Part shown: piece by piece, positions 1 to 23,088 of the stretch | Layout: each line of letters begins with the position of its first letter | Numbering within the stretch: position 1 is the first letter of the stretch | From: a bacterium | Lineage (GTDB): Bacteria > Electryoneota > RPQS01 | Direction of reading: 5' to 3' | DNA: 33,839 nucleotides | Assembly (NCBI GenBank): GCA_018812265.1 | Contig: JAHJDG010000232.1 | Location: 1 to 33,839 of the forward strand | Made by a program: the position numbers and the translations under genes | Notes under the pieces: model-generated | Databases searched by the model: none | The model's input: the letters and a program-made list of their open reading frames with translations, nothing else | What the model was told of the DNA's origin: nothing

Positions 1-12
1 AGGTGGTGGAGG

Positions 13-32
13 GGTGACTCTGGAGAGTCACC
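13..32. repeat. Inverted repeat (hairpin) before the first cytochrome gene
   Basis: GGTGACTC and GAGTCACC face each other across a TGGA loop, giving a perfect 8-bp stem. No T-tract follows on either strand, so it is not a standard intrinsic terminator. It could be the end of an upstream transcript or a leader hairpin of the cytochrome gene; the window begins too close to decide. Confidence 0.4.
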
Positions 33-96
33 ACCGGGAGAAATCACGCATTCCCCTCTGATGTTTTTGGGATGCGCTCAAGTAAATAATGCGCCA

Positions 97-2580
97 ATGA
101 ATCCGCGGCTGATTTCATCCTTTTTTCGTCTCGTTTTAATCGCGTCCGCCGTCTGTGGCTTTGCGCTCCTGACCTTTGCGCAGTCGGATGATGACTGCAT
201 GATGTGTCACTCGGACGCTTCGCTGACCCGGACTCTGGACAACGGAACGATTCAATCGCTGGCCGTTACGACGGATTCGCTCGGCAGCTCGGTACACGCA
301 TCGTTTTCGTGCGTGGATTGCCACGCCGACCTGAAGGGCTTCGAAGACTATCCGCACGCGGAGAAGCTGGAAGCCGTCCGCTGCGGAACCTGTCACACCG
401 ATGCGGCGACTGCGATGGCTCGCGGGTCACACGAAGGAAGCTTGAATTGCGCAGCCTGTCACGGGACGCACAACGTACTTCAGACCCGGAATCCGAAATC
501 TCCCGCATCAACGTCGCGCATCAACCAGACGTGTAGCGAGTGTCACAATCGCCTGCATGCTCCGATTCGCGGCCGCACCGCCGCCTATGCAAATTACGAC
601 GTGGGGCTGCACGGTCGTCATCCGAATGCCAACGGTGCGAACGGTCCCACCTGCACGACCTGTCACGGCACGCACACCGTTCTATGTGAAAAGAAACTGG
701 CTGATCGGCTCGAGCAGAAGTGCATCGGCTGTCACGGCGAGGTGGCGGCGGAGTTCAAAACTTCGGTACACGCCGACATTAACGAGGGCCGGGCCAATTC
801 ACACTGCTACGAATGCCACGGCGAGCATCGCAGCCGCGCGCCCTCCGATACCACGCTGCGCGTGCTGAACGAATCGCCCGCCGAAGCCACCTGCGGTTCC
901 TGCCACGCCGAATCGGTCGCTCGCTACAACCAGAGTCTTCATGCCTACGCGCTGGCGGAGGGATCGCCCCGAGCACCGCGGTGCGAAAGCTGTCACGGAG
1001 CGCACAGCATCCGGCGCGTATCCGATCCGCATTCGCCGATCGCGCGCGGCAATCAGGTCCGAACCTGTGCCGCCTGTCACAGCCAGATCGGAATCACGCT
1101 CGACCCAGACATTCGCATGCCGCGCTCGTTCGAGAACTATGAGGAGAGTTCCCACGGCCGACTCCTGGGGGAGGGCAACACCGAAGTCCCGGTTTGCGTG
1201 GATTGTCACGGCGGCCACGCCATCCGTGCCAGCAGCGATCCGACGTCAACGATCAATCCCAAGAAGATTGACGAGATGTGCGGCCGATGCCATGCTGAGG
1301 AACAGAGGCTCTTTCGCGAGTCCATTCACTATCGCGCCCTGATGTTCGGGATTGACGACAGTCCCACCTGCACAGGTTGTCACGGAGAGCATATCCAGCT
1401 CTCGCCCAACGATCCCAACAGCCGGGTCAGCCGCAGCCGGCAGTCTCACGAGACCTGTGGTCGTTGTCACAACAATCCGATGATGATCCGCAAGTACGGC
1501 CTCGCTCCCGACGTGGTTACAACCTATGAAGACAGCTACCACGGTCTGGCCACGCGGGGGCGAAGCGCAAGGGCGGCGGTGTGCGCCGATTGTCATCAGG
1601 CCCATGCGGTACGCACCGCGCGCGACACGCTGTCCACGATTCACGAGCGCAACGTGACGGAAACCTGCCGTCAGTGCCATCCCAGAGCCGACACCAGATT
1701 CGCTCAGTCATACACTCATACTGCTCTACAACCCCGTACCGGTGGAATCAACTATTGGATCGCGCAAGTGTACTGGGTTCTTATCCTGGTCATCGTCGGC
1801 GGCATGCTGGTGCACAATCTGATTATCCTCAACTGGCACATACTCGAAACGCGTAGACGCCAGGACGTGGGCCGACGGATCGTCCGGTTCGATATCCATC
1901 AGCTCATTCAGCACATGGCGCTGACGATCTCGTTTATCACACTGGCCGTCACGGGTTTCGCGCTGAAGTATCCTGACGCCTGGTGGGTACGGTGGCTGGC
2001 GGCGCTGGGGATGGACGAATCCGTTCGGCGGATGCTTCACCGGGTCATGGCGGTCGTGCTCATCGCTTGTTCCGTCTATCACGTCATCTATCTGTTTCTG
2101 ACTCGCCGCGGCTGGGACGAGTGGAAAGCCATGATGCCGGACAAGCGAGACGTGGTGGACCTCGCCGACACGATGAAATTCCACCTGAATCTCAACAAGA
2201 AGGTTCCGGAGTACGCCCGCTACGACTATTCCCAGAAGGCCGAGTACTGGGCGTTGATCTGGGGAACGATCGCGATGATCATCACCGGCATCATTCTCTG
2301 GTTTCCGGCCCAGCTTGCGCCGCTGCTGCCGGGATGGGCGATCACCGCCGCGCAGACGATCCACTTCTACGAGGCCTGGCTGGCGACGCTGGCGATTGTC
2401 GTATGGCACTTCTTCTTCGTGATTTTCCATCCCGAAGAGTATCCCATGAGCTGGACTTGGCTCACGGGGCGAATGAACATCGAGCAAGTGAAGCACCGTC
2501 ACCGTCGCTGGTATCGCGCGTTGATGGAGCAGGAAGCGGCGAGATCGGCGGAAGCGGAGACGCCATCGCCGAAGGAGTAG
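97..2580 (+). CDS. 17-heme cytochrome c fused to a membrane b-type cytochrome
   Basis: Predicted quinol-linked electron-transfer protein with a periplasmic heme-c wire and a membrane cytochrome b. The protein carries 17 CXXCH motifs, from CMMCH just after the signal peptide to CRQCH. They fall into eight two-heme modules of about 55-70 residues plus one final heme; a typical module has a conserved distal His (S-x-H) between its two motifs and CHGxH at the second. About five hydrophobic helices follow, with His residues placed for heme b (LVHNL, QHMAL, HRVMA, YHVIY, WHFFF). The c-plus-b architecture recalls CbcL-type inner-membrane cytochromes of Geobacter, but with many more hemes. I chose the Met at 97 because it gives a normal signal peptide ending in TFA; the frame stays open to an ATG at 61. 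Neither start has a clear ribosome site. The next gene begins 56 nt downstream. Function is inferred from architecture. Confidence 0.9.
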   Translation: MNPRLISSFFRLVLIASAVCGFALLTFAQSDDDCMMCHSDASLTRTLDNGTIQSLAVTTDSLGSSVHASFSCVDCHADLKGFEDYPHAEKLEAVRCGTCHTDAATAMARGSHEGSLNCAACHGTHNVLQTRNPKSPASTSRINQTCSECHNRLHAPIRGRTAAYANYDVGLHGRHPNANGANGPTCTTCHGTHTVLCEKKLADRLEQKCIGCHGEVAAEFKTSVHADINEGRANSHCYECHGEHRSRAPSDTTLRVLNESPAEATCGSCHAESVARYNQSLHAYALAEGSPRAPRCESCHGAHSIRRVSDPHSPIARGNQVRTCAACHSQIGITLDPDIRMPRSFENYEESSHGRLLGEGNTEVPVCVDCHGGHAIRASSDPTSTINPKKIDEMCGRCHAEEQRLFRESIHYRALMFGIDDSPTCTGCHGEHIQLSPNDPNSRVSRSRQSHETCGRCHNNPMMIRKYGLAPDVVTTYEDSYHGLATRGRSARAAVCADCHQAHAVRTARDTLSTIHERNVTETCRQCHPRADTRFAQSYTHTALQPRTGGINYWIAQVYWVLILVIVGGMLVHNLIILNWHILETRRRQDVGRRIVRFDIHQLIQHMALTISFITLAVTGFALKYPDAWWVRWLAALGMDESVRRMLHRVMAVVLIACSVYHVIYLFLTRRGWDEWKAMMPDKRDVVDLADTMKFHLNLNKKVPEYARYDYSQKAEYWALIWGTIAMIITGIILWFPAQLAPLLPGWAITAAQTIHFYEAWLATLAIVVWHFFFVIFHPEEYPMSWTWLTGRMNIEQVKHRHRRWYRALMEQEAARSAEAETPSPKE

Positions 2581-4973: not shown

Positions 4974-6365
4974 CTACCCGCGCGCGCCGGTCTGCCTCTC
5001 CTCGGTCATTGCCGCCGAGAGATGGTTGATCGCATTCGTCAGAATGCGGATCGTGTAGTCGCGGTTATGCACGCCGTGACTCTTATCGTCATGCACGAAG
5101 AAATAAGCGTAGCCCGCCTGACGCTGCGCGAGGGTCCAGTTGACCGTGTCCATCGCGGCCCTTACCTCGCCGTTTTCCTGCGGCAGGAGCGTGCTGAGCT
5201 GTTCCATTAGGTTCGCGACTTGAGTCTGAATGCCGTTGACGTCAAAGCTGGTGGCTCCCGAATGGCACGTCTGGCACTTGGACAACTGTGGCGCGAACGT
5301 GTGCCCATAGGCGGGGCCGCCGGGATCACCAAATCCCCGCGTCACAATGTGACATTCCACGCACATATCCGCCAGAATGCCGGTGGTGTGCAACATGGTC
5401 CCGCGAACGTCCGCGTAGTTCTGTCCGGGTATCTCATAGCAGGCCCGACCGGCCACCATATCTCCCTGCGAGCTGGGATGCGGTCCGGGATGATCGCTGC
5501 CCCGCGCGATCTGCCCGGCAATATTCGCGCTGTCCCGCCGTGCGTGATGGCACTGCACGCACAGTTGTCCATTGCCCCATCCGCTAATGGTGTAACTGGT
5601 CGTTCCGTTATCACCGCCGCCGTATGGAGATACCACCGATCCTACGTTGCGAAGTTGGCCGGGATTGCCGGCTTGATGCGGATCGTGGCAGGTAACGCAG
5701 GTGACCTGCCAACTTTCGGCGGTCGGAGTGTGGCCCGCCCAATCGGGATCGTTGTTGGCAATGAACTTTTCCGACACGTGGCAGCTCCAACACGGATTAC
5801 GTCCGAATTCCGCCCACCATTCCTCATGTCCACCGGCCCGCTCGATGGCCGTTCCATGACGTGACGTGATGTATTCAGCATATGCGGGGTGGCAGCTACC
5901 GCAGGTTTCGCCGGTCAGTCCCTTGTGGATTTCCGGCGCGTGAGTCAGGGCCGGGCCCATCGGCCCATGACAGGCTTCGCAATGCACGTTCTTGACGGCA
6001 TCCCGCGGATTGTCATCGAAGCCGTCCCGATCCAAGCCCTGCGAAATCAGATTCCCGTCGTGATCGTACCGATCGTCAAAACCCGTCGTGTGGCACTGCA
6101 AACAATAGAGATCGGTCGCATTGTCACCGGTCAGCGCAAAGTAGGCTTCCGAATGACCGGTTCCCTCCCACGCTTCAGTCGTTGCCGCATGACAGTGGCC
6201 ACAACTCTCGGCGCTGTTGCCCAGATAGACCTGACCGTCTCCCGGACCTCCAGGAGGGCCGGCCGGCCCTTGCGGTCCTTCCGGACCTTCACACCCAATC
6301 ATCATAAAACCGATAGCCAGCACCCCCGCCACCAAGAGCCCGACGTGCAGATGGTGGACTCTCAT
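4974..6365 (-). CDS. Nine-heme cytochrome c lipoprotein with collagen-like tether
   Basis: Predicted lipid-anchored multiheme cytochrome. The N-terminus is a short hydrophobic signal ending in MIGC, a slightly non-standard lipobox with Cys25 as the lipidated residue. It is followed at once by a collagen-like Gly-X-Y tract (GPEGPQGPAGPPGGPG). Nine CXXCH motifs follow (CGHCH, CLQCH, CEACH, CGSCH, CWSCH, CVTCH, CVQCH, CVECH, CQTCH), then a heme-free helical C-terminus of about 90 residues. The heme spacing resembles the cytochrome c554/multiheme family, but I see no catalytic signature. AGGAGA lies five or six bases before the ATG. It is transcribed alone, towards the 17/18-heme operon. Whether it faces the periplasm or the cell surface is unknown; an outer-membrane partner for the two membrane cytochromes is a reasonable guess. 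Confidence 0.9.
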   Translation of the reverse strand: MRVHHLHVGLLVAGVLAIGFMMIGCEGPEGPQGPAGPPGGPGDGQVYLGNSAESCGHCHAATTEAWEGTGHSEAYFALTGDNATDLYCLQCHTTGFDDRYDHDGNLISQGLDRDGFDDNPRDAVKNVHCEACHGPMGPALTHAPEIHKGLTGETCGSCHPAYAEYITSRHGTAIERAGGHEEWWAEFGRNPCWSCHVSEKFIANNDPDWAGHTPTAESWQVTCVTCHDPHQAGNPGQLRNVGSVVSPYGGGDNGTTSYTISGWGNGQLCVQCHHARRDSANIAGQIARGSDHPGPHPSSQGDMVAGRACYEIPGQNYADVRGTMLHTTGILADMCVECHIVTRGFGDPGGPAYGHTFAPQLSKCQTCHSGATSFDVNGIQTQVANLMEQLSTLLPQENGEVRAAMDTVNWTLAQRQAGYAYFFVHDDKSHGVHNRDYTIRILTNAINHLSAAMTEERQTGARG

Positions 6366-6830
6366 GATCTCTCCTTGCAGAATTTTATGTTCGGGATCAA
6401 GTTCAATTTGTCACAAAAGAAGATAACAGGATATTGTCATCAATATATGATAAAATAGGAAGAGGTCAATAGTCGAGATCAATCAATGAGTCATATATGA
6501 GCCTTGATGGAGAATTATAAGACATTATTTTTCATTCTGTCGTGTTCAATTACGATTCTCAGATGGATTCTCGAGAGGAATGCTTTCAAATAAAACTTCT
6601 TATGTATAATTTCAATAATATCCTATTCTTCGTGATAAATAGTGCAATCACTGACATGAGCACGCAATGGGACAGAATCAGGCGGTTTCGTGCAGTCTAT
6701 AAGATGCCGCCTTGAAATGATAATAAGGAACGGTTCCGCACTCGCCAATTGGCTCTCCGACAATTGTGTGACATTCCCGAACACGTACTTCCATATATTC
6801 TACTCCATAAGTGAGGAAACAAAACCCACT
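6366..6830. promoter_or_regulatory. AT-rich divergent promoter region
   Basis: This 465-bp spacer separates the minus-strand lipoprotein cytochrome from the plus-strand heme operon and must hold both promoters. It is much richer in A+T than the flanking genes. The best -10 candidate for the heme operon is TATAAT at 6605-6610, about 220 nt before hemC, with no convincing -35. I see no RNA gene, known riboswitch or credible protein-coding frame. Confidence 0.5.
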
Positions 6831-7724
6831 ATGAGAATCGGAACTCGTGGTAGTGCGTTGGCACTTGCTCAGGCAAAATGGGTAGCCGAGCGTTTGTCGG
6901 ATTGCCTGCGGACTTCGCCGGAAATCACCGTCATCGAGACTACCGGAGATCGCGTCACCGATCGGCCACTTCGTGAAATCGAGGGACGAGGTTATTTCAC
7001 GAAAGAAATCGAAGAAGCTCTGCTCAATGGAGCTATTGATATTGCCGTTCACTCGTTCAAGGACATGCCGTCTAAGGCTCCCGGAGGTCTTGTTGTAGTA
7101 GCCGTCACGGGCCGCGAATATCCCGCGGACCTGTTGATCATTCGGGGGAATGCCTATGATCCGCGGGAAAGGGATCTACCGCTGCGAGCGAATTCGGTAG
7201 TCGGTACAAGCGCCGTGCGGCGGGAAACACAAACCCGGGCGCTGCGGAAAGACTTGGTCTTCTCCGATCTGCGGGGCAATGTTCCCACTCGTTTGAAGAA
7301 ACTCGATGCTGGCCCGTTCGATGCGATCTTTCTGGCGTCGGCCGGCGTGCGACGGTTGCGACTCGATCTGGCCGGTTACCACGTAATTCGACTCGATCCC
7401 ACCCGTTTCATTCCCGCTCCGGGACAGGGAGCGCTGGCGATTCAGATGCGCGAGGACGATGAGCACTCCGCGCGTGTGCGAGCGGCGCTGCACGACGCTT
7501 CGATTGGCACGGCCACTTCCATCGAGCGCGCCGTTCAAGCCCGGTTCGGCGGTGGCTGCGGACTTCCGCTGGGAGTCTATACCTATCCCGAGCATTTGGA
7601 ATGGCATGCTCACGGCTTCTGGGGCGGTGATCCGGCGCGGCCCGTGTGGGCACAGGTTGCCGATGAGGATCCCGAGAGAATTTCGGAGCGTTTGTTTGCG
7701 CAACTGAAAGACAAATCGGCATGA
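6831..7724 (+). CDS. hemC: Hydroxymethylbilane synthase (porphobilinogen deaminase)
   Basis: Joins four porphobilinogen molecules into the linear tetrapyrrole hydroxymethylbilane in the cytoplasm. The protein opens with MRIGTRGSALALAQA, the family N-terminus, and has the catalytic Asp in HSFKDMP (Asp78), the Arg-rich cofactor site GTSAVRRETQ, SDLRGNVPTRL, PAPGQGALAIQ, and Cys243 in GGGCGLPLG, which carries the dipyrromethane cofactor. At 297 residues it is slightly short of the usual 305-315. The frame stays open upstream to 6690, but homology places the start at 6831, with a GAGG site about 14 nt before it, which is rather distant. First gene of the heme operon; its TGA overlaps the ATG of hemD. 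Confidence 0.96.
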   Translation: MRIGTRGSALALAQAKWVAERLSDCLRTSPEITVIETTGDRVTDRPLREIEGRGYFTKEIEEALLNGAIDIAVHSFKDMPSKAPGGLVVVAVTGREYPADLLIIRGNAYDPRERDLPLRANSVVGTSAVRRETQTRALRKDLVFSDLRGNVPTRLKKLDAGPFDAIFLASAGVRRLRLDLAGYHVIRLDPTRFIPAPGQGALAIQMREDDEHSARVRAALHDASIGTATSIERAVQARFGGGCGLPLGVYTYPEHLEWHAHGFWGGDPARPVWAQVADEDPERISERLFAQLKDKSA

Positions 7725-8491
7725 ATCTTCGTGTGCTCATCACAAGGGAACCACACCGCTCGGCAAGACTCGTTCGGGCGCTAAGCGAGCGCGGAATCGT
7801 CGGGATCAGTATTCCCGTCACTCGGATTGAGTTCATCGAAAATCCGGCACCGTGTCCCGATCTCCGCAACTTCTCATGCATCGCCTTCACAAGCGTCAAC
7901 GGCGTGGAGGCGTTTGCCATGTGGCTGGAGCGAAACCACCTCAGTTTGCTCAATCAAATTCGCTTGGCCGCCGTGGGTCCCTCGACCGCCGAAATCTTGA
8001 GAACGCGGCTGCGCAAACCCGATATCATCAGCCATAATACTACGGCCGCCGGTCTGGCCGGGGAAATCATTTGTTCTCTCGCTGGTGAGACTGCTCAAGA
8101 AATTCTCTGGCCATGTGCGCAGAAACGGACTCCCGAGTTGGAAAACGAACTGACGCGCGCGGGAATGCACGTAACGCCGTGGGAGTGTTATCGCACCGTT
8201 CCCGTGCCCGCCTCTGAATTGCAGCCTCGCTTGGAGAATGTGTCGCCGTGGGATGCCGCGCTATTCTCTGCTCCGAGCGCGGTCAGAGCCTTTGTGGAAG
8301 CTTGGCCGTTGCCGTGGAGTTTCGCAGTTATCGCTATCGGCCCTTCGACTTCAGCGGCTCTTCACGAAGCGGGCGTTCCTAATCCGCTCGTCAGCCCACG
8401 GGCAACGGACGGACAAATTCTGGAAACGATCCTGTCGGCGATTCGCCATCCATTCCCGAGTGAATCCTATCCAAGTCAAGCGACCGAATGA
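7721..8491 (+). CDS. hemD: Uroporphyrinogen-III synthase
   Basis: Closes hydroxymethylbilane to uroporphyrinogen III with inversion of ring D. The family is weakly conserved, and recognition rests on several features: 256 residues, the two-lobed pattern of FTSVNGVEAF and AVGPSTAEIL repeated later as FSAPSAVRAF and AIGPSTSAAL, and the position between hemC and hemE. It starts inside the hemC stop (ATGA) and ends inside the hemE start (ATGA), so translation is probably coupled on both sides. No odd features are seen. Confidence 0.92.
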   Translation: MNLRVLITREPHRSARLVRALSERGIVGISIPVTRIEFIENPAPCPDLRNFSCIAFTSVNGVEAFAMWLERNHLSLLNQIRLAAVGPSTAEILRTRLRKPDIISHNTTAAGLAGEIICSLAGETAQEILWPCAQKRTPELENELTRAGMHVTPWECYRTVPVPASELQPRLENVSPWDAALFSAPSAVRAFVEAWPLPWSFAVIAIGPSTSAALHEAGVPNPLVSPRATDGQILETILSAIRHPFPSESYPSQATE

Positions 8492-9561
8492 AAACGGCCC
8501 ATAATTCTTTGCCCGAAAGAATCCCGGCGACAACCGCGGCGGAATCCGAGTATCTTCGCGCCGCGCGCGGAGGAAAAGTGTCCCCTCCACCGGTCTGGTT
8601 GATGCGACAGGCCGGCCGATACTTGCCCGAATATCGTGAAATCCGCAGCCGTCATGGATTTCTCGAAGTGTGCAACACTCCCGAGCTCGCCTGCGAGGTC
8701 ACCTTGCAACCGATTCGGCGATTCCGATTTGATGCCGCCATTCTCTTCAGTGATATTCTGCTTCCCCTGATCCCGATGGGAGCGGATCTGTCGTTCGGGA
8801 AGAACCATGGGCCGCGCATCTCCAATCCCCTGCGCACCCGATCCGATGTCGAGAAGCTCAAGCGTTTCGAGCCGCGCGAGAGTTTGACTGCCGTATTGAA
8901 AGCCATTCGCATGATCCGTTCCGAGCTTCCGCGCGAAATCGCCTTGATCGGATTCGTTGGTGCTCCTTTCACTCTGGCTTCCTATTTCATCGAGGGGGGA
9001 AAGCCCGATCCCTTTGCCAACATCAAGCGGATGATGTATGGCGATCCGAAAGTCTTTGATCTACTCTCGAAACGACTGGCGGACATGGGAGTTGAGTATC
9101 TTGCGGCGATGGTGGAAGCCGGCGTGGACGCCGTCCAGCTTTTTGACACCTGGGCCGGCCATTTGTCGGAGCTTGAATTCCGTTCACGTTGTCTCCCTTA
9201 CTTGAAAATAATATTCGAGCAACTCGCTCCGCTTGCTGTTCCCATGACCTACTTCACACTGGGAGGAATGCACCTGCTGTCCGGTATTCGTGAAAGCGGC
9301 AGCACGGTGGTCGGGCTGGATTGGAGAACTCCCATCGCCGCCGCTCGCAACACGCTCGGTTCGGACATTGCGATCCAGGGCAACCTCGATCCCGCGATTC
9401 TGTTGACCGACGAAACGACGATTCGTTCGGAAGTGCGGCGAATTGTTGCGGAGGGAAAACAGGAGGGACATGTTTTCAACCTCGGGCACGGCATTTTTCC
9501 TCAAACGCCGGTCACTTCCGTGGAAATCATGCTGGACGAATTGCGCGGAGCGAAGAAATGA
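8488..9561 (+). CDS. hemE: Uroporphyrinogen decarboxylase
   Basis: Removes four carboxyl groups from uroporphyrinogen III to give coproporphyrinogen III. All the family landmarks are present: WLMRQAGRYLPEYR near residue 40, FSDILLPLIPMG with the catalytic Asp, GFVGAPFTLASYFIEGG, LFDTWAGHL, GNLDPAILL and FNLGHGIFPQTP near the C-terminus. The length of 357 residues is normal. The ATG overlaps the hemD stop, and its own stop overlaps the ATG of hemN. Confidence 0.97.
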   Translation: MKTAHNSLPERIPATTAAESEYLRAARGGKVSPPPVWLMRQAGRYLPEYREIRSRHGFLEVCNTPELACEVTLQPIRRFRFDAAILFSDILLPLIPMGADLSFGKNHGPRISNPLRTRSDVEKLKRFEPRESLTAVLKAIRMIRSELPREIALIGFVGAPFTLASYFIEGGKPDPFANIKRMMYGDPKVFDLLSKRLADMGVEYLAAMVEAGVDAVQLFDTWAGHLSELEFRSRCLPYLKIIFEQLAPLAVPMTYFTLGGMHLLSGIRESGSTVVGLDWRTPIAAARNTLGSDIAIQGNLDPAILLTDETTIRSEVRRIVAEGKQEGHVFNLGHGIFPQTPVTSVEIMLDELRGAKK

Positions 9562-10952
9562 GTGGTACTCCGCTGAATAAGATTCCTGAAGAACGTATCT
9601 TCGCTCTTGTAGAACGGTTGGAAGTTCGTGGACCACGCTACACTTCCTATCCGACCGTTCCATCATGGAAGGATGATCGTCCGGTTGAATCCTATGGGTC
9701 CGCTCTGGCCGAGCTTGCTTCCAGGAAACGTCCCATTGCGATCTACGTTCATCTGCCCTTCTGCCGCCGCCGCTGCCTCTATTGCGGCTGCAATTCGTAC
9801 GTCACGAGTGACGCCAATCGAATGAACGGCTATGCCGATAGTCTGCTGCGGGAAATCGAGCGCGTAGCCGAGCATCTCCCGAGCAGCGTGAAACACTATC
9901 AACTCCATCTGGGGGGCGGGACGCCGACTCACTACTCCCCGGAGTTGTTGCAGCGAATTCTCGAACGGGTTATCGCCGTCTTTCCGGGTGAGACGAGAGC
10001 CGAACATTCTATCGAAGTAGATCCGCGAATCACCGCCAGCGAGCACCTCCGCGTTCTGCAGGCTCAAGGCTTCCAGCGCATTTCCGTTGGTCTGCAGGAC
10101 CTAAGTCCCGCTGTTCAACGGGCTGTGCAGCGAGAATATTCACCAAATCAATTACAGAATTTCATTGAACTGTCGCGGCAATACGGTTTCACCAGCATCA
10201 ACATTGATCTTATCTACGGCTTGCCGAAACAAACCCACGATTCTTGGAAACAAACTCTGAACGCAATTGCGAAACTGCGGCCCGACCGAATTGCCTGCTT
10301 CGGCTATGCCCATCTGCCCGAGCGACTCAAACATCAGGCGGCGATTCGCAGCGAAGATTTGCCGTCGCCGAACGAGCGACTGGGAATGATGCTGGACGCG
10401 CAGCGTCTTTTTGCTGACGCGGGTTATGTTTCCATCGGTATGGATCATTTCGCCTTGCCCGATGACGACCTTGCAATGGCGCAGCGCGCGGGCCGGGTTT
10501 GGCGGAACTTCATGGGCTACACCACTTCCCATGGAATGGAGCTCCTCGGCCTCGGTTGTTCGGCAATCAGCGAATTCGAGAGCCTGTTCGTTCAGAACGC
10601 GGTGTCGCCGGAGCGTTATGCCGAACTCCTGTCCGGCGGATCATGGGCGATTCAGCGAGGCCATCAGCTTAATTATGATGATCGCGTGAGAAAACATATC
10701 ATCAATCACCTGATGTGCAATCTGGACATTCGCATTCCACCGGATGTCGAGGAACTTGATAATGAACTTGCGGAATCTCTGAACGCAGCAATGGATTCAT
10801 TGCGCGGATACGTGGACGAGGGCTTGCTGATTGAGTACGACAGCGGATATACGGTAACTCCGCTTGGTCAACTGTTCGTGCGGAACCTCGCCATGCCGTT
10901 TGACCGGTATCTCGAGCAACAGCACGGCGTTTACTTTTCCCAGACCGTTTAG
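9558..10952 (+). CDS. hemN: Oxygen-independent coproporphyrinogen III oxidase (radical SAM)
   Basis: Converts coproporphyrinogen III to protoporphyrinogen IX without oxygen, using radical SAM chemistry. The N-terminus has the HemN signature PRYTSYPT, and the cluster motif is PFCRRRCLYCGC: Cys69, Cys73 and Cys76 bind the 4Fe-4S cluster, and Cys78 is the extra Cys seen in true HemN and not in HemW-type proteins. LGGGTPTH and IDLIYGLPKQT also match. At 464 residues it is close to E. coli HemN. The reading frame is open back to 9321, but the ATG at 9558 overlaps the hemE stop (ATGA) and matches the family start. Its presence indicates that heme is made anaerobically. Confidence 0.96.
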   Translation: MSGTPLNKIPEERIFALVERLEVRGPRYTSYPTVPSWKDDRPVESYGSALAELASRKRPIAIYVHLPFCRRRCLYCGCNSYVTSDANRMNGYADSLLREIERVAEHLPSSVKHYQLHLGGGTPTHYSPELLQRILERVIAVFPGETRAEHSIEVDPRITASEHLRVLQAQGFQRISVGLQDLSPAVQRAVQREYSPNQLQNFIELSRQYGFTSINIDLIYGLPKQTHDSWKQTLNAIAKLRPDRIACFGYAHLPERLKHQAAIRSEDLPSPNERLGMMLDAQRLFADAGYVSIGMDHFALPDDDLAMAQRAGRVWRNFMGYTTSHGMELLGLGCSAISEFESLFVQNAVSPERYAELLSGGSWAIQRGHQLNYDDRVRKHIINHLMCNLDIRIPPDVEELDNELAESLNAAMDSLRGYVDEGLLIEYDSGYTVTPLGQLFVRNLAMPFDRYLEQQHGVYFSQTV

Positions 10953-10959
10953 GTGATTC

Positions 10960-11892
10960 GTGCGCGCCGTACTGTTGGTGAATATGGGCGGTCCCGCGGA
11001 TGAGACGAAAGTGCGGCCCTATTTGCGGGCGATCTTCCGCGATCCGGCCATTCTCCCCGTTCCGGCTTTGATTCGTCCGCTGCTATCAAGACTCATCGTG
11101 GTTTTGCGCGCGAATCGCGTTATCGAGCGATACCGGATGATCGGTGGGGCCTCGCCGTTGATTGCATGGACGGAAAGACTATGCATAGCAGTTGCCGACG
11201 CACTGAAGGAGTATGAACCCGCACCGCCGGTCGCCTATGCCTTTCGCTACTCCGAACCGACGATTGAGACGGCATTGACGAAACTGAAGACACAACGCAT
11301 TCAAACCGTGAGCCTCGTCCCCTTGTTTCCGCACCACACACGGGCGATGACCGGCTCGATTGAAACCGAAGCCAGAGAAGTGTCTCGCAAATTGGGTATG
11401 ACGGTGGACGTACTGCCCGCGTGGGGCAATCAGGCGGACATTCTTGATGTATGGAGCGGATATCTGAACGAAGCATTGGCCATGCTCGGAAAAGATGCAC
11501 GCGTGCTCTTCGTAGCTCACGGGATTCCTTTGCGAGACGTACGCCGGGGTGACGACTATCCTGATCGTGTGCGTGACACGGCTCGCGCGCTTGCTTCATC
11601 GCTTCCCCAAGGAACGGAGTGGACTGTTGCTTTCCAGAGTAAAGTCGGTCCTTTGCCGTGGACTCGGCCGTATTTGAAGGTGGAACTCGACCGTTTATGC
11701 GCCGAATCGAAACCCCTGGTCATCATGCCCATCAGTTTCGCCGCCGACTGTCTGGAGACAATGTACGATCTTGATCTGCAGGCCGTTCCGCGCGCCCGGC
11801 AAGCCTGTAGCGATCAAGTCGTTCGCGTTCGTGCTTTCAATGATGAAGCGCGGTTCGCCCGCATACTGGCTCGTCTGGCGGTGGAACGATGA
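10960..11892 (+). CDS. hemH: Ferrochelatase
   Basis: Inserts ferrous iron into protoporphyrin IX. LLVNMGGPADETKVRPYLRAIF is the family N-terminus; YRMIGGASPL, the catalytic-His region FVAHGIPLR, FQSKVGPLPW and FAADCLETMYDLD (with the conserved Glu) follow. The 310 residues match the bacterial length. The start is GTG at 10960, seven bases after the hemN stop, preceded only by a weak AGG. The next gene begins inside its stop codon. Confidence 0.95.
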   Translation: MRAVLLVNMGGPADETKVRPYLRAIFRDPAILPVPALIRPLLSRLIVVLRANRVIERYRMIGGASPLIAWTERLCIAVADALKEYEPAPPVAYAFRYSEPTIETALTKLKTQRIQTVSLVPLFPHHTRAMTGSIETEAREVSRKLGMTVDVLPAWGNQADILDVWSGYLNEALAMLGKDARVLFVAHGIPLRDVRRGDDYPDRVRDTARALASSLPQGTEWTVAFQSKVGPLPWTRPYLKVELDRLCAESKPLVIMPISFAADCLETMYDLDLQAVPRARQACSDQVVRVRAFNDEARFARILARLAVER

Positions 11893-13313
11893 ATCCGTCC
11901 GACGAACTGCACAACGTTCCGCGAGTTGTCGTCGTCGGCGCGGGCGTCGCCGGACTGGCGACGGCATTCCTCATTCGTGAGATCGGCAACACTGCGGGAA
12001 GGGACGTCAACGTCTCCATACTCGAAGCGCAATCCTCAGCCGGCGGCGCAACCCGTACCGATCACGTAGATGGATACATTTGCGAGTGGGGACCCAACGG
12101 TTTTCTCGACAATGAACCGGCCACCTTTAACTTAGTGAACCGGCTGAATCTTACCAATCGCCTGCTCAAGGCCAACGCGGCCGCGGCGCACCGCTACATC
12201 TTCCATAGTGGCAAACTCCACGACGTGCCGCTGAAACCCGCCGCGTCTCTGGCGTCGGATATCCTGCCATTGTCGGCGAAATTGAGAATGGCGATGGATC
12301 TGCTTGTCCCGGCCAAGCGCGATCATTTGGAGGAAACGGTTTACGCTTTCGGGCGTCGCCGCCTCGGTCGAGCATTTTCTACCTATCTGCTCGATCCCAT
12401 GGTCTCCGGCATCTTTGCCGGAAACGCGCACTAACTCTCTCTTCCGGCGGTCTTTCCCAGAATGGTTGAGTTGGAAAAAGAGTACGGCGGTCTGTTTCGC
12501 GCCATGTTTGCTCTGCAGAAGCAAGCGAAACGGAACGGTCGCGCATCCGGTGGCCCGGTTGGTGCAAACTCGGTTCTGCACACGTTCCATGATGGGATGG
12601 GCGAACTCACGAACGCGCTTGCCGAGCGTATGGCGGGAAGACTTCGCCTGAATCGTCGCGTCGAATCTCTCTCGCGCGCCGGCGGCCGGTGGCAAGTGTG
12701 CCTGACGGACGAACGAATCGAGGCGGACGCTGTAATTCTCGCCTGTCCGTCGTTCGAGGCCGCCGAGATTGTCGGCAAGCTGGCTCCCGACACCGCCGAC
12801 TCACTCCGCGATATCCGCTATGCACCCGTGGACGTGGTGTGTCACGGGTATCGAACCGAGGATATTGGACACCCGTTGCACGGATTCGGAGTTCTGATTC
12901 CACGAAGCGAAGGCATTCGTTCGCTCGGTTGCCTGTGGAGCGATTCGATTTTCACCGGACAAGCTCCCGAGGGGAAACATCTGCTGCGTACGATAATCGG
13001 CGGCGCGCATGATCCCGAGGTGGTCCGTCTATCCCAGGCGGAACTGGATCGGCTTGCCTTTCGGGATCATCAGCACATCCTACCGATTCACAAACCTCCG
13101 ATTCTCGTGAAAACATATCGTCATCCCCGCGGTATTGCACAGTATACACTTGGTCATCTGCAGCGAGTTGCGTGCACGGAGGAACTCGAACGTCATGCGC
13201 CAGGAGTCTTCTTTACGGGAGCCTCCTATCGAGGTGTATCCATCAATGGTTGCGTGAAAGATGCGAATCGTGTGGCCGCGGCATTCTGGGCACGATATGG
13301 AGTCCGCGTATGA
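11889..13313 (+). pseudogene. hemY: Protoporphyrinogen oxidase, interrupted by one in-frame TAA
   Basis: FAD-dependent oxidation of protoporphyrinogen IX to protoporphyrin IX, the step before hemH. The N-terminal FAD site VVVVGAGVAGLATAF, the GGATRTDHVDGYICEWGPNGF region, LLDPMVSGIFAG, and the C-terminal YRGVSINGCVKDANRVA are all in one reading frame of 475 codons, the usual length. Codon 182 is TAA. Residues on both sides (GIFAGNAH before, LSLPAVFPRMVELE after) join as an uninterrupted family sequence, so nothing else is shifted or lost. Read literally, the gene gives a 181-residue fragment and, from the ATG at 12462, a 283-residue fragment. The start overlaps the hemH stop (ATGA). A sequencing error, a recent nonsense mutation, or readthrough could each explain it; TAA is a normal stop elsewhere here (fdhE). 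Confidence 0.9.
12432..12434 (+). other. In-frame TAA within hemY
   Basis: The codon sits between GNAH and LSLPAVF. Homologues as I recall them carry a charged or polar residue here (G-D-P-E-K-L-S-L), so AAA, GAA or CAA changed by one base would produce it. No ribosome-binding site stands just before the next in-frame ATG at 12462, so efficient restart there is doubtful. Confidence 0.85.
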
Positions 13314-13456
13314 ACTTGGCGGTGTACTCGCTGTCCCCTGCTATAATACGAATGACGGGCCATCGTTCGGCGGCCATTTTTGTCGTTCTCTCAGCCGAGG
13401 TGTTGGCATCAATGATTATCGCGGAGGTGGAAATCATGGTGGGAGAGTGGTTATGA
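13310..13456 (+). CDS. Possible 48-residue small protein between hemY and hemA
   Basis: An open frame fills the hemY-hemA gap exactly: its ATG overlaps the hemY stop (ATGA at 13310) and its TGA overlaps the hemA start (ATGA at 13453). The product has a hydrophobic middle (SAAIFVVLSAEVLASMIIA), compatible with a single membrane helix but interrupted by Glu. I do not recognise it. The double overlap is suggestive because other genes of this operon are joined the same way. Against it, ATGA junctions arise easily by chance, and there is no strong ribosome site. A possible internal promoter lies inside it. It could be a coupling frame with no useful product. Confidence 0.35.
   Translation: MNLAVYSLSPAIIRMTGHRSAAIFVVLSAEVLASMIIAEVEIMVGEWL
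13339..13347 (+). promoter_or_regulatory. Possible internal promoter (extended -10) before hemA
   Basis: TGCTATAAT matches the extended -10 form TG-N-TATAAT exactly. TTGGCG at 13316-13321 is a poor -35 at a spacing of 20, which an extended -10 can tolerate. It lies about 105 nt before the hemA ATG and could drive hemA-hemB-hemL and the two-component genes separately. Confidence 0.4.
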
Positions 13457-14754
13457 AGTTCGAGATGATCGGCCTGAACCATACCACGTCCACTCTCGAA
13501 GTCCGTGACAGAGCCGCGATCAGTTCCGGTCGGCTGGAGGAAGTGGCGACGCGGCTTTTGCAGGAACCGTACATGGAGGGCGTGGTGATTCTGTCCACCT
13601 GCAATCGTGTCGAACTCTACTTTTCCCCGAGTTACCACTCCACGGATCAGGCGCTTTATTCCCGCTTTGCAGAAAGCTGCAATCTGTCTCCGGCCGAAGC
13701 CCGCGCAGCCTATATCCACCGCGACGGCGACGCCGTGCACCACATCTTTCGCGTGGCCTCCGGTCTCGATTCGCAACTCATCGGCGAAACCCAGATTCTC
13801 ACTCAAGTCAAACAAGCCTATCATTCCGCGCTGGATCTGGCCTGCTCCAATGCCCTCCTGAACCGCGTCTTCCTGCGAGCCATCGAATGCGGAAAAATGA
13901 TTCGCAGTCGCACCGCCATCTCACGGGGTGCCGTCTCCGTTTCGTTCGCGGCCGTGAACATGGCGGAGCGCGTGTTCGGTCATTTGAAAGGACGCCGCAT
14001 TCTTCTGATAGGAGCCGGTGAAACGATTCGTTTGGCCATGAAACACCTGATGAACGCAGGCGCGGAGTCCTGGCGAATCAGCAACCGGACGCGCGCCCAT
14101 GCGGAGCGACTGGCCGAAACGCTGAACGCCGCGGTGGTATCTTTTCCCCCGCACGACGAAGACCTTGCGTGGGCCGATATTATCGTCTCCGCCACCGGTT
14201 CGCCACAAGTTGTCGTCTCTGCGGATCAGGCCGCTCGCGCGCTGTCGAGTCGGAATCGAAGCGGCCCGCTGCTGATTCTCGACTTGGCCGTTCCGCGAGA
14301 CGTTGATCCGGCCTTTCGGAGCGATAACGCTTACGTGTATTCGGTGGACGATTTTCGGCAGCTCGTCGAGGCCAACCTCAAGGCACGGCAGCGGGAAGCG
14401 GTTCGTGCGGAGAAACTGGTTCGGCAGAGCGTGGAGGATTTCGTTGTCTGGTACAAGGCTCATCGCGTTCTGCCTACCATTCAACAGTTGCAGGAAGTTC
14501 TGGAAGAAATCCGCACGGAGGAAATCGAGCGAAACGCCCGCCGGTTCAGTGCCGCCGACCGTGAGCAAGTGGAATTATTTTCCAAGATACTCATCAAGAA
14601 AGTCGCCACCCTCATCATCGTCAACATGAAACAAGCCTCGGTCGAGCGCAACGATCTTTCTCTGGCCAGCGCCGTATCCCTGGCCTTTGCGGGGGAGGAC
14701 AAAGAAGCTGTTGAGAACGTGCTGGAGCAATTGAAGCATGAACTTTCCCATTGA
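13453..14754 (+). CDS. hemA: Glutamyl-tRNA reductase
   Basis: First committed step of the C5 pathway: reduces glutamyl-tRNA to glutamate-1-semialdehyde with [15 protein letters not shown] contains the catalytic Cys50; [17 protein letters not shown], the nucleotide-binding GAGETIRLA (usually GAGEM), SNRT and [10 protein letters not shown] follow, then the C-terminal dimerisation helices. 433 residues is normal. The frame extends upstream to 13261, but GGGAGA six bases before the ATG at 13453, and the family start [11 protein letters not shown], fix the start. HemA is commonly the controlled step of heme synthesis, and here a possible internal promoter precedes it. Its end overlaps hemB by 17 nt. 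Confidence 0.96.
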
Positions 14755-15721
14755 TCGTCCGCGGCGCTTGAGACGCACGGAGACTCTGCGCCGGCTTGTC
14801 TGCGAAACCTGGCTTCGTCCCGAAGATTTGGTTCAGCCGCTCTTTGTAGTTCCGGGAGAAAACGTTCGCCGCCCCATCGCCAGCCTGCCGGGACAGTTCC
14901 ACTTGTCCGTGGATCAAGTCGCAGACGAAGCGAAGCGAATTTTCGATCTTCATATTCCTGCGATCCTGCTTTTCGGAGTCCCAAGCTGCAAAGACGAGAT
15001 GGGAAGTTCCGCCTATGACGAGAACGGCGAAGTGCAACGGGCGACGCGGGCCATAAAAGAAGCCATACCCGGCCTCCTCGTCATCACCGACGTTTGCCTT
15101 TGCGAGTACACCAGCCACGGTCACTGCGGAGTCGTGAAACGGGGTGACGTGGACAATGATCGGACGCTGCCTTTGCTCGCCAAGACCGCGCTCAGTCACG
15201 CCGCTGCCGGCGCGGACATCGTCGCGCCCTCGGACATGATGGACGGCCGCGTGCGCGCGATCCGCGACGCACTGGACGGGAGAGGCTTCGATCAAACGGC
15301 GATTCTTTCGTATGCGATCAAGTACGCCTCCGCCTACTACGGACCCTTCCGCGATGCGGCGGGATCGGCTCCACAGTTTGGCGACCGCCGCGGCTACCAA
15401 ATGGATCCTCCCAACGCGCTGGAAGCACTGCATGAGGCGGAACTCGATCTCGCGGAAGGAGCGGACATGATTATGGTCAAGCCCGGCGTCGCCTATCTTG
15501 ACGTCTTGTCGCTCGTGAAACGAACACTGAGAAGAGTCACCGCGGCCTATCAGGTTTCCGGAGAATACGCCATGATCGAAGCGGCGGCCCAGCGAGGATG
15601 GATTGACCGCCGCCGCGTCATTCTCGAGACGCTGGTGGCTTTCAAACGGGCGGGCGCCGATTTCATTCTTACCTACTACGCCTCGGAAGCGGCCGCTTGG
15701 CTGCGTGAGGATATCCGATGA
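14738..15721 (+). CDS. hemB: Delta-aminolevulinic acid dehydratase (porphobilinogen synthase)
   Basis: Condenses two 5-aminolevulinate molecules to porphobilinogen. The active-site lysines are Lys195 (SYAIKYAS) and Lys248 ([10 protein letters not shown]). The metal site [14 protein letters not shown] keeps three cysteines (120, 122, 130), so this is the zinc-type enzyme, not the Mg-only form. [10 protein letters not shown] and VSGEYAMI also fit. The 327 residues are normal length. The start lies inside the end of hemA, with GGAG ten or so bases upstream. Confidence 0.96.
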
Positions 15722-15829
15722 CCGCCGAGCCGGGTTTAGCGCTCGATTCCTCCTCGAATGACGGATATTTCGCCGCGCGCAACCCGGCCGGAACAATCTC
15801 TCTCCTTGACAAAATGCGAGGGAAATCGC

Positions 15830-17098
15830 ATGACCAAGTCCGAACAGCTCTTTGAACGAGCGCAAAAAGTCTTGCCGGGCGGAGTAAACTCGCCGGTGCG
15901 TGCTTTCAAGGCCGTCGGTGGCACGCCGCCCTTCATCGTTGCGGCACGGGGATGTACGCTTGAAGATTCGGACGGAAGATGCTACATTGACTATGTAGGT
16001 TCGTGGGGCCCCATGATCTTGGGGCATTCCCACTCCACCGTGGTCAGGGCACTTCAGGAAGCGGTGCCGCGGGGGACGAGCTTCGGCATGCCCTCGCCGA
16101 CAGAGGTAGAACTCGCCGAAGAGATCGTCCGTCGTGTCCCTTCAATCGAAATGATTCGTTTTGTGAATTCCGGAACGGAAGCCACGATGAGTGCCATCCG
16201 CCTCGCACGTGCCGCCACGGGCCGACCAACAATTCTAAAATTCTCCGGATGTTATCACGGGCACGCCGACAGCTTCCTGATCCAGGCCGGATCGGGAGTC
16301 GCCACCCTCGGCCTTCCCGACAGTCCGGGGGTCACCAGAGGAGCCGCGCAAGATACGCGGATCGCTCCCTTCAATGATTTTGCTGCCGTTGAGCGATTAT
16401 TCGACCGCGAGGGCGATTCGATGGCGGCAGTCATCGTGGAACCCGTGTGCGGAAACATGGGAGTTGTTCCTCCCGCGGAAGGTTTCTTGGAAGGGTTGCG
16501 GAGTCTCTGTGACCGCAACCACTCCCTGCTCATCTTCGACGAGGTCATGACCGGCTTTCGCGTGCATCCGGCCGGCGCGCAGGGACTTTTCGGCATCCGA
16601 CCTGACCTGACAGCCTTCGGCAAGGTCATCGGAGGTGGATTGCCGGTGGGAGCCTATGGCGGACGGGCCGATCTGATGCAGCGGATTTCTCCCTCCGGAC
16701 CCGTTTATCAGGCGGGCACGCTGTCCGGGAATCCGCTGGCCATGACGGCCGGACTGGCTACGCTCCATGAACTCACGGAAGATGCTTATGCGAAACTGGA
16801 GCGGACATCGGCGAAACTCGCACAGGGTTTGCGAAACGTATGCGCTGAAAAGAGAATCGCCGCGCAGGTTCAGCGCGTCGGTTCGATGCTTACACTGTTT
16901 TTTGGCGAACGTCCGGTGACGAATATGGAGGACGCTTCGCGGGCCGATCACGGCAAGTACGCTCGCTTTTTTCGGAACCTGCTGGCGTCGGGAGTGCATC
17001 TTCCACCCAGCGGATACGAGGCCTGGTTCGTATCGCTGGCGCATAACGACTCGACGGTGGAACGCACGATTGCCGCCGCCGCCGCCGCTTTAGCGTGA
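15830..17098 (+). CDS. hemL: Glutamate-1-semialdehyde 2,1-aminomutase
   Basis: PLP enzyme that moves the amino group of glutamate-1-semialdehyde to give 5-aminolevulinate, completing the C5 route with HemA. The PLP lysine is Lys265 in AFGKVIGGGLPVGAYGG; SGTEATMSAIRLAR, GCYHGHADSFL and FDEVMTGFR are the other class-III aminotransferase landmarks. 422 residues is normal. The frame is open to 15758, but GAGGG seven bases before the ATG at 15830 and the family start TKSEQLFERA set the start. About 108 nt separate it from hemB; I see no convincing promoter there. Confidence 0.96.
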   Translation: MTKSEQLFERAQKVLPGGVNSPVRAFKAVGGTPPFIVAARGCTLEDSDGRCYIDYVGSWGPMILGHSHSTVVRALQEAVPRGTSFGMPSPTEVELAEEIVRRVPSIEMIRFVNSGTEATMSAIRLARAATGRPTILKFSGCYHGHADSFLIQAGSGVATLGLPDSPGVTRGAAQDTRIAPFNDFAAVERLFDREGDSMAAVIVEPVCGNMGVVPPAEGFLEGLRSLCDRNHSLLIFDEVMTGFRVHPAGAQGLFGIRPDLTAFGKVIGGGLPVGAYGGRADLMQRISPSGPVYQAGTLSGNPLAMTAGLATLHELTEDAYAKLERTSAKLAQGLRNVCAEKRIAAQVQRVGSMLTLFFGERPVTNMEDASRADHGKYARFFRNLLASGVHLPPSGYEAWFVSLAHNDSTVERTIAAAAAALA

Positions 17099-19439: not shown

Positions 19440-20372
19440 TTAGAGCGTGCCGGAAACGGAATCGGGAGATGTTTCGACGGTCCCCGCCGTCTGCCGATAG
19501 AGCAGGAGTTCATTCCCGTCGGGATCCTCGTAGCGGACGGTCAGAGGAGATTCTCGAATGTATCCTTCCTGCAAAGCCAGATAATCCAATCCGACCGCAC
19601 CGAGTGCATTCTGCAGGAAAGGAAATTGTTCCGCCGGATTCTCCGAGCGAATCTCCTTGACGTAGCGGCGGCACTTCTGGCAGGCGTGCAACCGGCAGGC
19701 GTCTTCCGCTTCGGGCGAAAGAACCGTAAGGGAACCTTGATCTTCATTCAGACAGAACGGACATTGGAGGCGTTTGAAAGCCCAACTCGTTCCGCAGTGC
19801 AAACACCACAGAGTCAGGCGTCCATCCTCACTCCAAAGGTGTCCCAGGTTTGGCCAATGACCGCATACGGGACAATAGCCGCATTTCCACTCCGCCAGAT
19901 CCACACCCTCCGTCAGCGTCCGCGCTACTTGACTTCGATACGGCCTAACCAAACAGACGGCGAAGAAAGCGACGAGATCATCGGCCAGATCAAACTGCCT
20001 TTGAAACCGGACAATCTCGTTGCCCCGGTTGCGGAAGGCGCTGCCTGCAAACGTCGAAGGTTCGCTCTGTCCGTTGGCGAATGCGTGAAGGATCTTCGCC
20101 ACTTCGTCGCGGCGCTCGGGAAGATGCTGATCGAGAACTTCCAGCAACTCATGAGCCGCACTCCCCGCCGTTTCCTCGCGGAGCTCGCAGCCGCAGGGCC
20201 GCAGCAGATAGCGTCCCTCGCGAATACGTCGCGCGGCCACCTCGGGCATATCCTTGGCCGGTGGCTTACGAAAAAGGCTCTCCGCCTCGAATCGGCGAAA
20301 GAAAGCGTTCAGGTCCGATGCGAACGGTTCCAGAGCTTGTATATCTGAACGGATCGAAGAGTCACTATTCAT
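19440..20372 (-). CDS. fdhE: Formate dehydrogenase accessory protein FdhE
   Basis: Cytoplasmic maturation factor of respiratory formate dehydrogenases. The C-terminal half has the paired Cys motifs of the family for rubredoxin-like metal sites: YCPVCGHWP, WCLHCGTSW, CPFCLNED, and ACRLHACQKCRRYVK. The N-terminal half is helical. 310 residues match E. coli FdhE. Its ATG overlaps the stop of fdhD (ATGA), and its own stop is TAA, which shows that TAA is used normally as a stop in this genome. Confidence 0.93.
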   Translation of the reverse strand: MNSDSSIRSDIQALEPFASDLNAFFRRFEAESLFRKPPAKDMPEVAARRIREGRYLLRPCGCELREETAGSAAHELLEVLDQHLPERRDEVAKILHAFANGQSEPSTFAGSAFRNRGNEIVRFQRQFDLADDLVAFFAVCLVRPYRSQVARTLTEGVDLAEWKCGYCPVCGHWPNLGHLWSEDGRLTLWCLHCGTSWAFKRLQCPFCLNEDQGSLTVLSPEAEDACRLHACQKCRRYVKEIRSENPAEQFPFLQNALGAVGLDYLALQEGYIRESPLTVRYEDPDGNELLLYRQTAGTVETSPDSVSGTL

Positions 20373-21232
20373 GCTTCGCGCTCATTCTCCGAAGATGCTC
20401 TTCCCGGACTCAGCATGTCTTCGGCAGTAGTCTCATCAAAAATGATTCGTTCCGGGTGAGTGTAGAGGTTGAATCGGCGACGACGGGCAAATCCCACCAG
20501 CGTGATTCCGGACGCTTCCGCCAGATCTACCGCCAGCGACGTCGGCGCTGAGCGGGACGCCACGACGGGAATCCCGGCGAACGCCGCCTTGCGGATCATA
20601 TCCGATGACAGCCGTCCCGTGCTGCAGAGAACGGCGGAGGCGAGCGGCGACTCCAAGCGCGCGGCGGCGCCGACGACTTTATCCACCGCATTGTGCCGTC
20701 CGATGTCCTCACGAATCACCAGCGGCCCTCCGCTGATCGCCAGGGCCGCCAGATGAATGCAGCCCGTCCGCTCGTACCACACCGAGTAGTCTTCCCGGAG
20801 GATCGTGAACACCCGTCTGAAAAACTCGGGCGGCACGGCGACTTCTCCACCATCCGCCACACGCGGTACGTTCTGCCCGAGCGTCACTCCTTCGCCGCAT
20901 CCGGAACTCACGGTCCGGCGGCTTCGCCAATCCGCCGAGTGGAACGGACGATGCGGAGCGAGCGTAAATGCCGCCACTCCCTGCGCCGGATCGTGATCCG
21001 ACCGCACCACGTCAGCCAACCCGCCGATGACTCCCTCGGTGATGAGGTAGCCCAAGGCCAAGTCGTTGCAGTGGGTGGGGCTGCTGGCCAGTCGCACGAG
21101 CTCCTCGCCGTTGACGACGATGATCAGCGCCGCCTCGCGCGCCACCCATTCGCGGGTGTCGCGAATCTTGCCCGAGGAGTCGTCTTCGGTCGGCTCACGC
21201 CACTGAGTTGCCGGCAGGCTCTTGGCGATCAT
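20369..21232 (-). CDS. fdhD: Sulfurtransferase FdhD for formate dehydrogenase maturation
   Basis: Moves sulfur from IscS to the molybdenum cofactor before it enters formate dehydrogenase. The family landmarks EDIGRHNAVDKVVG, STGRLSSDMIRKA, SAPTSLAVDLAE and GFARRRRFNLYT are all present in 287 residues. The usual sulfur-carrying loop, CGVC in E. coli, here reads SSGCGEG and so has one Cys; another Cys lies in RTGCIHLAAL, where many members have TGG. Single-Cys loops occur in other members as far as I recall. Overlaps mobA upstream and fdhE downstream by ATGA. Confidence 0.93.
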   Translation of the reverse strand: MIAKSLPATQWREPTEDDSSGKIRDTREWVAREAALIIVVNGEELVRLASSPTHCNDLALGYLITEGVIGGLADVVRSDHDPAQGVAAFTLAPHRPFHSADWRSRRTVSSGCGEGVTLGQNVPRVADGGEVAVPPEFFRRVFTILREDYSVWYERTGCIHLAALAISGGPLVIREDIGRHNAVDKVVGAAARLESPLASAVLCSTGRLSSDMIRKAAFAGIPVVASRSAPTSLAVDLAEASGITLVGFARRRRFNLYTHPERIIFDETTAEDMLSPGRASSENEREA

Positions 21233-21828: not shown

Positions 21829-21846
21829 GACTGCAATCGCCCAGCG

Positions 21847-22449: not shown

Positions 22450-22499
22450 GACCGACTCCTCAAGCGACTAAAATGATAACGCGAGCGCAAGCTGTCGTT

Positions 22500-23018: not shown

Positions 23019-23088
23019 ATTTTGATCCTTCCGTTTCGATCCTTGCCCGGTGTGAAAATCGGGTCTTGGTTGCCTGTCGCCGGTCCCG

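Follow-up and report, generated by a model that had tools for sequence, protein, structure and literature searches.

Sequence and structural analyses suggest that the product of the fused cytochrome gene at the start of the window (the whole stretch of DNA analysed, 33,839 nucleotides) is a CbcL/MtrH/MtoC-type quinone:cytochrome c oxidoreductase of the inner membrane. Its 17-heme periplasmic wire would have grown from an 11-heme ancestor by a six-heme insertion. The probability of this reading is put at about 0.8. To our knowledge, no member of the subfamily of the window protein has been studied biochemically.

Architecture of the fused gene

The open reading frame at 97-2580 starts with ATG at 97, and its stop codon ends at 2580; it encodes 827 amino acids. 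These coordinates and the count of 17 CXXCH motifs were right in the initial annotation. They start at residues 34, 72, 96, 118, 146, 186, 209, 237, 266, 296, 324, 367, 395, 425, 454, 496, and 524, and contain 34 of the 37 cysteines. The parts of the gene are listed in Table 1.

Table 1. Features of the fused gene and of the gene downstream of it, with positions in the window.
Feature	Residues	Position	Strand	Basis
Signal peptide (periplasmic export)	1-29	97..183	+	Hydrophobic helix 3-26 in the model; sequence MNPRLISSFFRLVLIASAVCGFALLTFAQ
N-terminal two-heme cap, hemes 1-2	34-95	196..381	+	Pairs with hemes 1-2 of 11-heme relatives (scores 23 and 26) and with no other segment
Inserted six-heme block, hemes 3-8	96-265	382..891	+	Insertion-point scan best after heme 2; block z 7.0 against hemes 9-14
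Conserved nine-heme core, hemes 9-17	266-545	892..1731	+	Spacing 30,28,43,28,30,29,42,28 in most 11-19-heme orthologues
Cytochrome b domain, five helices, FdnI/HydC type	551-820	1747..2556	+	PF01292; FdnI sequence and fold matches
Predicted heme-b ligand (FdnI H18)	H606	1912..1914	+	Invariant in 22 homologues; FdnI alignment
Predicted heme-b ligand (FdnI H57)	H648	2038..2040	+	Invariant in 22 homologues; FdnI alignment
Predicted heme-b ligand (FdnI H155)	H756	2362..2364	+	Invariant in 22 homologues; FdnI alignment
Predicted heme-b ligand (FdnI H169)	H771	2407..2409	+	Invariant in 22 homologues; FdnI alignment
Probable partner gene, NapC/NrfH-type anchor plus 17 CXXCH	649 aa	2637..4586	+	PF03264, E 1.5e-9; 56 bp downstream

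The C-terminal part is a five-helix cytochrome b, as had been proposed from the sequence. PF01292 (prokaryotic cytochrome b561) matched the last ~270 residues with 68 bits, against a cut-off of 30.1. The domain aligns over the length of E. coli FdnI (1kqf_C, E 8.5e-11), and its predicted fold matches the same chain with a TM of 0.81 on FdnI. The long helices of the model lie at residues 551-584, 600-624, 641-668, 711-735, and 747-777. The formate dehydrogenase gamma model TIGR01583 also gave 68 bits, below its cut-off of 115.85. FdnI, from formate dehydrogenase-N, has the same diheme b fold with four histidines; however, its partner is formate dehydrogenase and not a multiheme c wire, and the window protein has an extra first helix.

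The internal repeat of the c domain was examined by pairwise comparison of the inter-heme segments after removal of CXXCH. Segment likeness was found at the even lags 2, 4, 6, and 8 (z 7.4, 7.5, 8.4, and 4.5), with lag 6 the highest, and no likeness was found at odd lags in this comparison. This two-heme periodicity, far beyond chance, runs through hemes 3-16; segments 1, 2, and 17 had no match to other segments. The best exact ungapped offset was 129 residues, a four-heme super-repeat. The repeat is thus made of seven two-heme modules of 50-71 residues each, in a four-heme super-register, between a cap and a terminal heme. The initial annotation had described eight two-heme modules plus a terminal heme. 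Its periodicity and separate terminal heme were retained; eight equal modules were ruled out, since hemes 1-2 form the cap and, like heme 17, lie outside the repeat.

The full-length structure model had a pLDDT of 74 and a pTM of 0.53. The model of the c domain, built with 49 homologues, had a pLDDT of 83 and a pTM of 0.74. The nine-heme core was mostly at 86-98, and the poorly modelled linkers were residues ~158-164, 175-180, 229-233, and 245-260 in window numbering. The best fold match of the c domain in the PDB was 6r2q_A (TM 0.53 on the target, probability 1.00, E 0.033), which was also the top PDB hit of the full-length profile (E 5.8e-15). We take this chain to be MtrA of the Mtr complex; the sequence file gives it a different name. 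A continuous heme chain would be supported indirectly by this closeness to chain A of the Mtr complex. The best curated sequence family of the c domain was likewise MtrA/DmsE (TIGR03508, E 1.1e-22), at 80.7 bits, below the cut-off of 192.2. These proteins are soluble decaheme subunits, whereas the window protein carries a b domain. A TIGR03508 family search of the window's own genome at E 1e-8 found none, so the curated decaheme model misses the fused protein by this route.

In the window subfamily, 19 histidines outside the motifs are invariant, which is enough for bis-histidine ligation of all 17 hemes. The c-type hemes of the wire are probably bis-histidine. The best PDB match to the N-terminal hemes of the family was 28pb_A, a 278-aa 'Cytochrome c' (E 1.1e-17).

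Neighbouring genes and other features of the window

The gene downstream of the fused gene (Table 1) encodes an NrfH-like 17-heme protein, HmcA-like by NCBIfam (E 4e-8), and it is possibly a second quinol:cytochrome oxidoreductase. Of the nine family genomes with the fused gene, eight match it over nearly its whole length (G004 has a partial copy at a contig end), and it was matched weakly at most in the two family genomes without the fused gene (G002 and G009).

The window begins where its contig does. Another contig of this genome, C44, encodes a 4-heme cytochrome, the cytochrome c assembly proteins ResB and CcsA, 8- and 11-heme cytochromes, and a porin-like protein of 414 aa, which had no family match. 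C44 and the window share an exact overlap of 51 bases; this 51-mer is a 12-copy repeat, so a join from the overlap alone was rejected and C44 is placed just upstream of the window by synteny. ResB, then the 4-heme gene, are found upstream of the fused gene in G003 and G008. In G008 the two genes come after a porin-like gene and two 12-heme genes, and in G001 the 4-heme gene adjoins the fused gene. Eight of the nine genomes that carry the fused gene also encode the porin-like protein and the 11-heme cytochrome; in G002 and G009 both were absent or gave a trace match only. As read from the sequences, these neighbours would fit extracellular electron transfer.

The repeat itself is 51 bp or longer and dispersed, at window positions 1-51 and 11 other genome sites (12 exact copies in all, many of them at the ends of contigs). 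It forms a hairpin (GGTGACTC-tgga-GAGTCACC) and breaks the assembly.

In G008, the fused gene is immediately preceded by HmcB- and HmcC-like genes. At L033:5774-9305, in a relative, HmcB- and HmcC-like proteins and a 13-heme cytochrome are encoded immediately upstream of the fused gene. Four contigs of relatives (L043, L045, L046, and L047) have split operons, in which a 7-/11-heme c gene, a separate 4-helix b gene, a 9-heme c gene, and a separate b gene are followed by a 15-17-heme NrfH-like gene. These operons resemble an unfused version of the fused tandem genes.

A nearly complete heme-biosynthesis cluster (window 6690-17098, + strand) sits just past the cytochrome genes, with hemC, hemD, hemE, hemN, hemH, and PPO, and with hemA, hemB, and hemL by sequence. 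The protoporphyrinogen oxidase gene (11889-13313, +) has an in-frame TAA at 12432-12434, and the sequences on either side of it align to successive stretches of the family model; the gene may be a pseudogene, or the TAA may reflect a sequencing error or a strain-specific mutation. A gene (4974-6365, -) that separates the cytochrome genes from the heme cluster encodes a probable lipoprotein with nine hemes and, behind the lipobox, a collagen-like GPEGPQGPAGPPGGPG stretch. The catalytic subunit of a formate dehydrogenase (25175-28219, -) is split solely by an in-frame TGA (HQARI-TGA-HSATVASLAATFGRGAMTNHW), which would be read as selenocysteine, as expected. It is followed by FeS, NrfD-type, FdhD, and MobA-like genes.

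Proposed function and comparison with known systems

By analogy with FdnI and CbcL, the diheme b domain would exchange electrons with the menaquinone pool, either oxidising menaquinol or reducing menaquinone. The b heme on the periplasmic side would exchange with heme 17, and electrons would run from heme 17 along the 17 c hemes to the cap at heme 1. At that end the wire would probably meet a porin-cytochrome outer-membrane complex or a periplasmic/soluble carrier.

Outward flow, with quinol oxidation and extracellular respiration, seems the more likely direction, since the genome encodes a formate dehydrogenase with selenocysteine as well as an outer-membrane conduit. Inward flow from an extracellular donor (Fe(II), a syntrophic partner, or an electrode) to quinone, as proposed for MtoC and CbcBA, is given a minor share of the probability. 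Both Fe(III) reducers and Fe(II) oxidisers carry CbcL/MtrH/MtoC homologues, and nothing in the sequences of these proteins distinguishes those that oxidise quinol from those that reduce quinone (PMC6295460). CbcBA is thought to be reversed in the syntrophic sulfate reducers Seep-SRB2 (PMC10553843), and the homologous FdnI reduces quinone. However, the window gave no sign of Fe(II)-oxidising or autotrophic metabolism, and its formate dehydrogenase locus (20369-28219) represents an ordinary electron donor, a better fit to outward flow.

The multiheme part might instead feed a periplasmic reductase or NrfH-like/Hmc-type complexes, working internally to distribute or store electrons. The NrfH-like 17-heme gene that adjoins and co-occurs with the fused gene, together with the HmcB-/HmcC-like genes of G008, would agree with such a role. 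This also seems rather improbable: a porin-like protein and two multiheme cytochromes co-occur in synteny, and no dedicated periplasmic terminal reductase adjoins the fused gene in the window.

The fusion of c and b domains was already in print by 2018, when Zhong and Shi described 138 CbcL/MtrH/MtoC homologues from 15 phyla, with 3-23 CX2CH motifs, 416-1034 residues, and 28.6-100% identity; most have six transmembrane helices, and four were reported with five (PMC6295460). The novelty implied by the initial annotation, that CbcL has far fewer hemes, did not hold for the family, although CbcL itself has nine. The window protein fits this kind by its architecture and the published descriptions. 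It has an exported N-terminal domain with a signal peptide and 17 motifs, and an FdnI/HydC-type b domain in the same chain; in the model, the C-terminal half contains five long helices, and the signal peptide adds a further one.

In CbcL of Geobacter sulfurreducens, nine bis-histidine c hemes are joined to a diheme b domain, and binding of the triheme cytochrome PpcA to the periplasmic domain has been demonstrated (PMC9129911). CbcL acts as a quinone oxidoreductase in extracellular electron transfer (PMC6295460; PMC9129911). It is like the window protein in having a periplasmic multiheme c domain at the N-terminal and a HydC/FdnI-type diheme b domain at the C-terminal of one chain. However, it has nine c hemes and six described helices, as against 17 c hemes and five predicted helices in the window protein. 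CbcBA (Geobacter) and Mco (ANME-2) also combine a multiheme c cytochrome with a b-type quinone or methanophenazine subunit. In CbcBA the c and b parts are on separate genes, whereas the window protein is a single polypeptide with 17 c hemes. The window's formate dehydrogenase is encoded on the opposite strand, ~18 kb from the fused gene, together with an NrfD-type membrane subunit of its own.

Heme-number variation and growth of the wire

Matches to the fused protein were found in 34 of 61 related genomes. The 17-heme spacing was kept within one residue in all six intact relatives from the window's GTDB family. A scan of named genomes gave at least 573 relatives, and the best 80 were taken further. 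These 80 came from MAGs labelled Zixiibacteriota, Calditrichota, Gemmatimonadota, Ignavibacteria/Melioribacter, Bacteroidetes, Acidobacteria, Planctomycetota, and others. Two of the named contigs, L053 ('Zixiibacteriota' SURF_9) and L098 ('Calditrichaeota'), come from genomes in the same phylum as the window. Nothing more specific was found in the literature on Melioribacter cytochromes, and a whole-protein search of a plasmid collection gave only weak matches to the b domain.

Homologues with other module numbers do exist. The complete fused ORFs among the best 80 and close relatives (~120 fused, a biased census that includes paralogues and some doubly represented genomes) had 11 (31 ORFs), 13 (1), 16 (21), 17 (24), 18 (6), 19 (33), 21 (1), and 23 (1) hemes. 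The 24 ORFs with 17 hemes fall into three architectures. The last nine hemes of the orthologues hold the core spacing within a few residues, except in the 18-heme forms (L087, L094, L102, L114, L120, and L122), where one core CXXCH is absent and a gap of 60-61 residues replaces two spacings of ~30.

Segment comparison showed that core hemes 9-17 pair with hemes 3-11 of the 11-heme form. In an insertion-point scan against this form, the six extra hemes were placed best after heme 2 in 61 of the 80 sequence pairs. With the average matrix, the 13-, 16-, other 17-, and one 19-heme form were also extended after heme 2. The insertion point of the main 19-heme form was heme 3, and those of individual 16-heme pairs were scattered. 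The 18-heme forms, too, are lengthened in this part of the wire.

The inserted block, hemes 3-8, is most like hemes 9-14 (z 7.0), so the six-heme gain reads as one block duplication. Hemes 11-16 were a poorer source (z 2.4), and offset 6 scored above offset 8 for 37 of the 42 pairs compared inside the subfamily, although such pairs are not independent. The spacings of the insert (22,28,40,23,28,29) and of the core (30,28,43,28,30,29) agree roughly in register; spacing alone is weak evidence of duplication, since 36 of 360 orderings fit equally. The likeness of inserted hemes 3 and 6 to core hemes was not above noise. These comparisons suggest that an 11-heme ancestor, with a two-heme cap and a nine-heme core, reached 17 hemes by a six-heme gain between cap and core, most likely by duplication. 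The simplest history would be one six-heme duplication, then shortening and decay of hemes 3 and 6. The tandem duplication of a heme-wire unit that was initially proposed thus stands as growth by copying, in the sharper form of a six-heme block; the copying of equal modules does not.

Insertion of a domain from another multiheme cytochrome seems less likely. In its favour, hemes 3 and 6 are unlike core hemes, and many extra hemes of the 16-/19-heme relatives resemble no core heme; against it, blocks 3-8 and 9-14 match in register with z 7.0, and the top z of all lags falls at lag 6.

A quick tree of the b domain, in which 47 of the 120 inner branches were weakly supported, placed the window subfamily in a single clade (SH-aLRT 99). 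Heme-number labels changed 13 times in all, and 11 hemes was the parsimonious ancestral state of the orthologues. A single origin for all long forms was rejected (AU p 2.3e-5). The window subfamily was sister to one 19-heme group with a support of just 14, and the two extensions may share their start.

A paralogous 19-heme group offers a clearer example of duplication, in which hemes 1 and 3-6 match hemes 9 and 11-14 (lag-8 scores for hemes 1-6: 31, 1, 29, 37, 78, and 41). Several paralogous 19-23-heme fusions (L042, L058, L062, L068, L072, L109, and others) look as if an eight-heme block had been tandemly duplicated.

The growth of heme wires is usually hard to read, as their sequences decay quickly. 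In this family the slow b domain gives an independent tree and the nine-heme core gives the register, so that changes in heme number can be placed on the tree. They can be traced to a block duplication (17 hemes) or the repeat of an eight-heme block (19-heme paralogues). It thereby becomes testable whether hemes are gained for longer reach, for storage of charge, or for adjustment of potential. No account of the cap, insert, and core, of the block duplication, or of repeated extension near one joint was found in the open-access papers. A more speculative and at present improbable idea is that wire length is a tunable lineage trait: several lineages may have lengthened the chain independently near one joint, until one protein spanned much or all of the periplasm, free of a shuttle. 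If this is true, the quinone pool would be linked to the outer-membrane conduit by one protein without a soluble shuttle.
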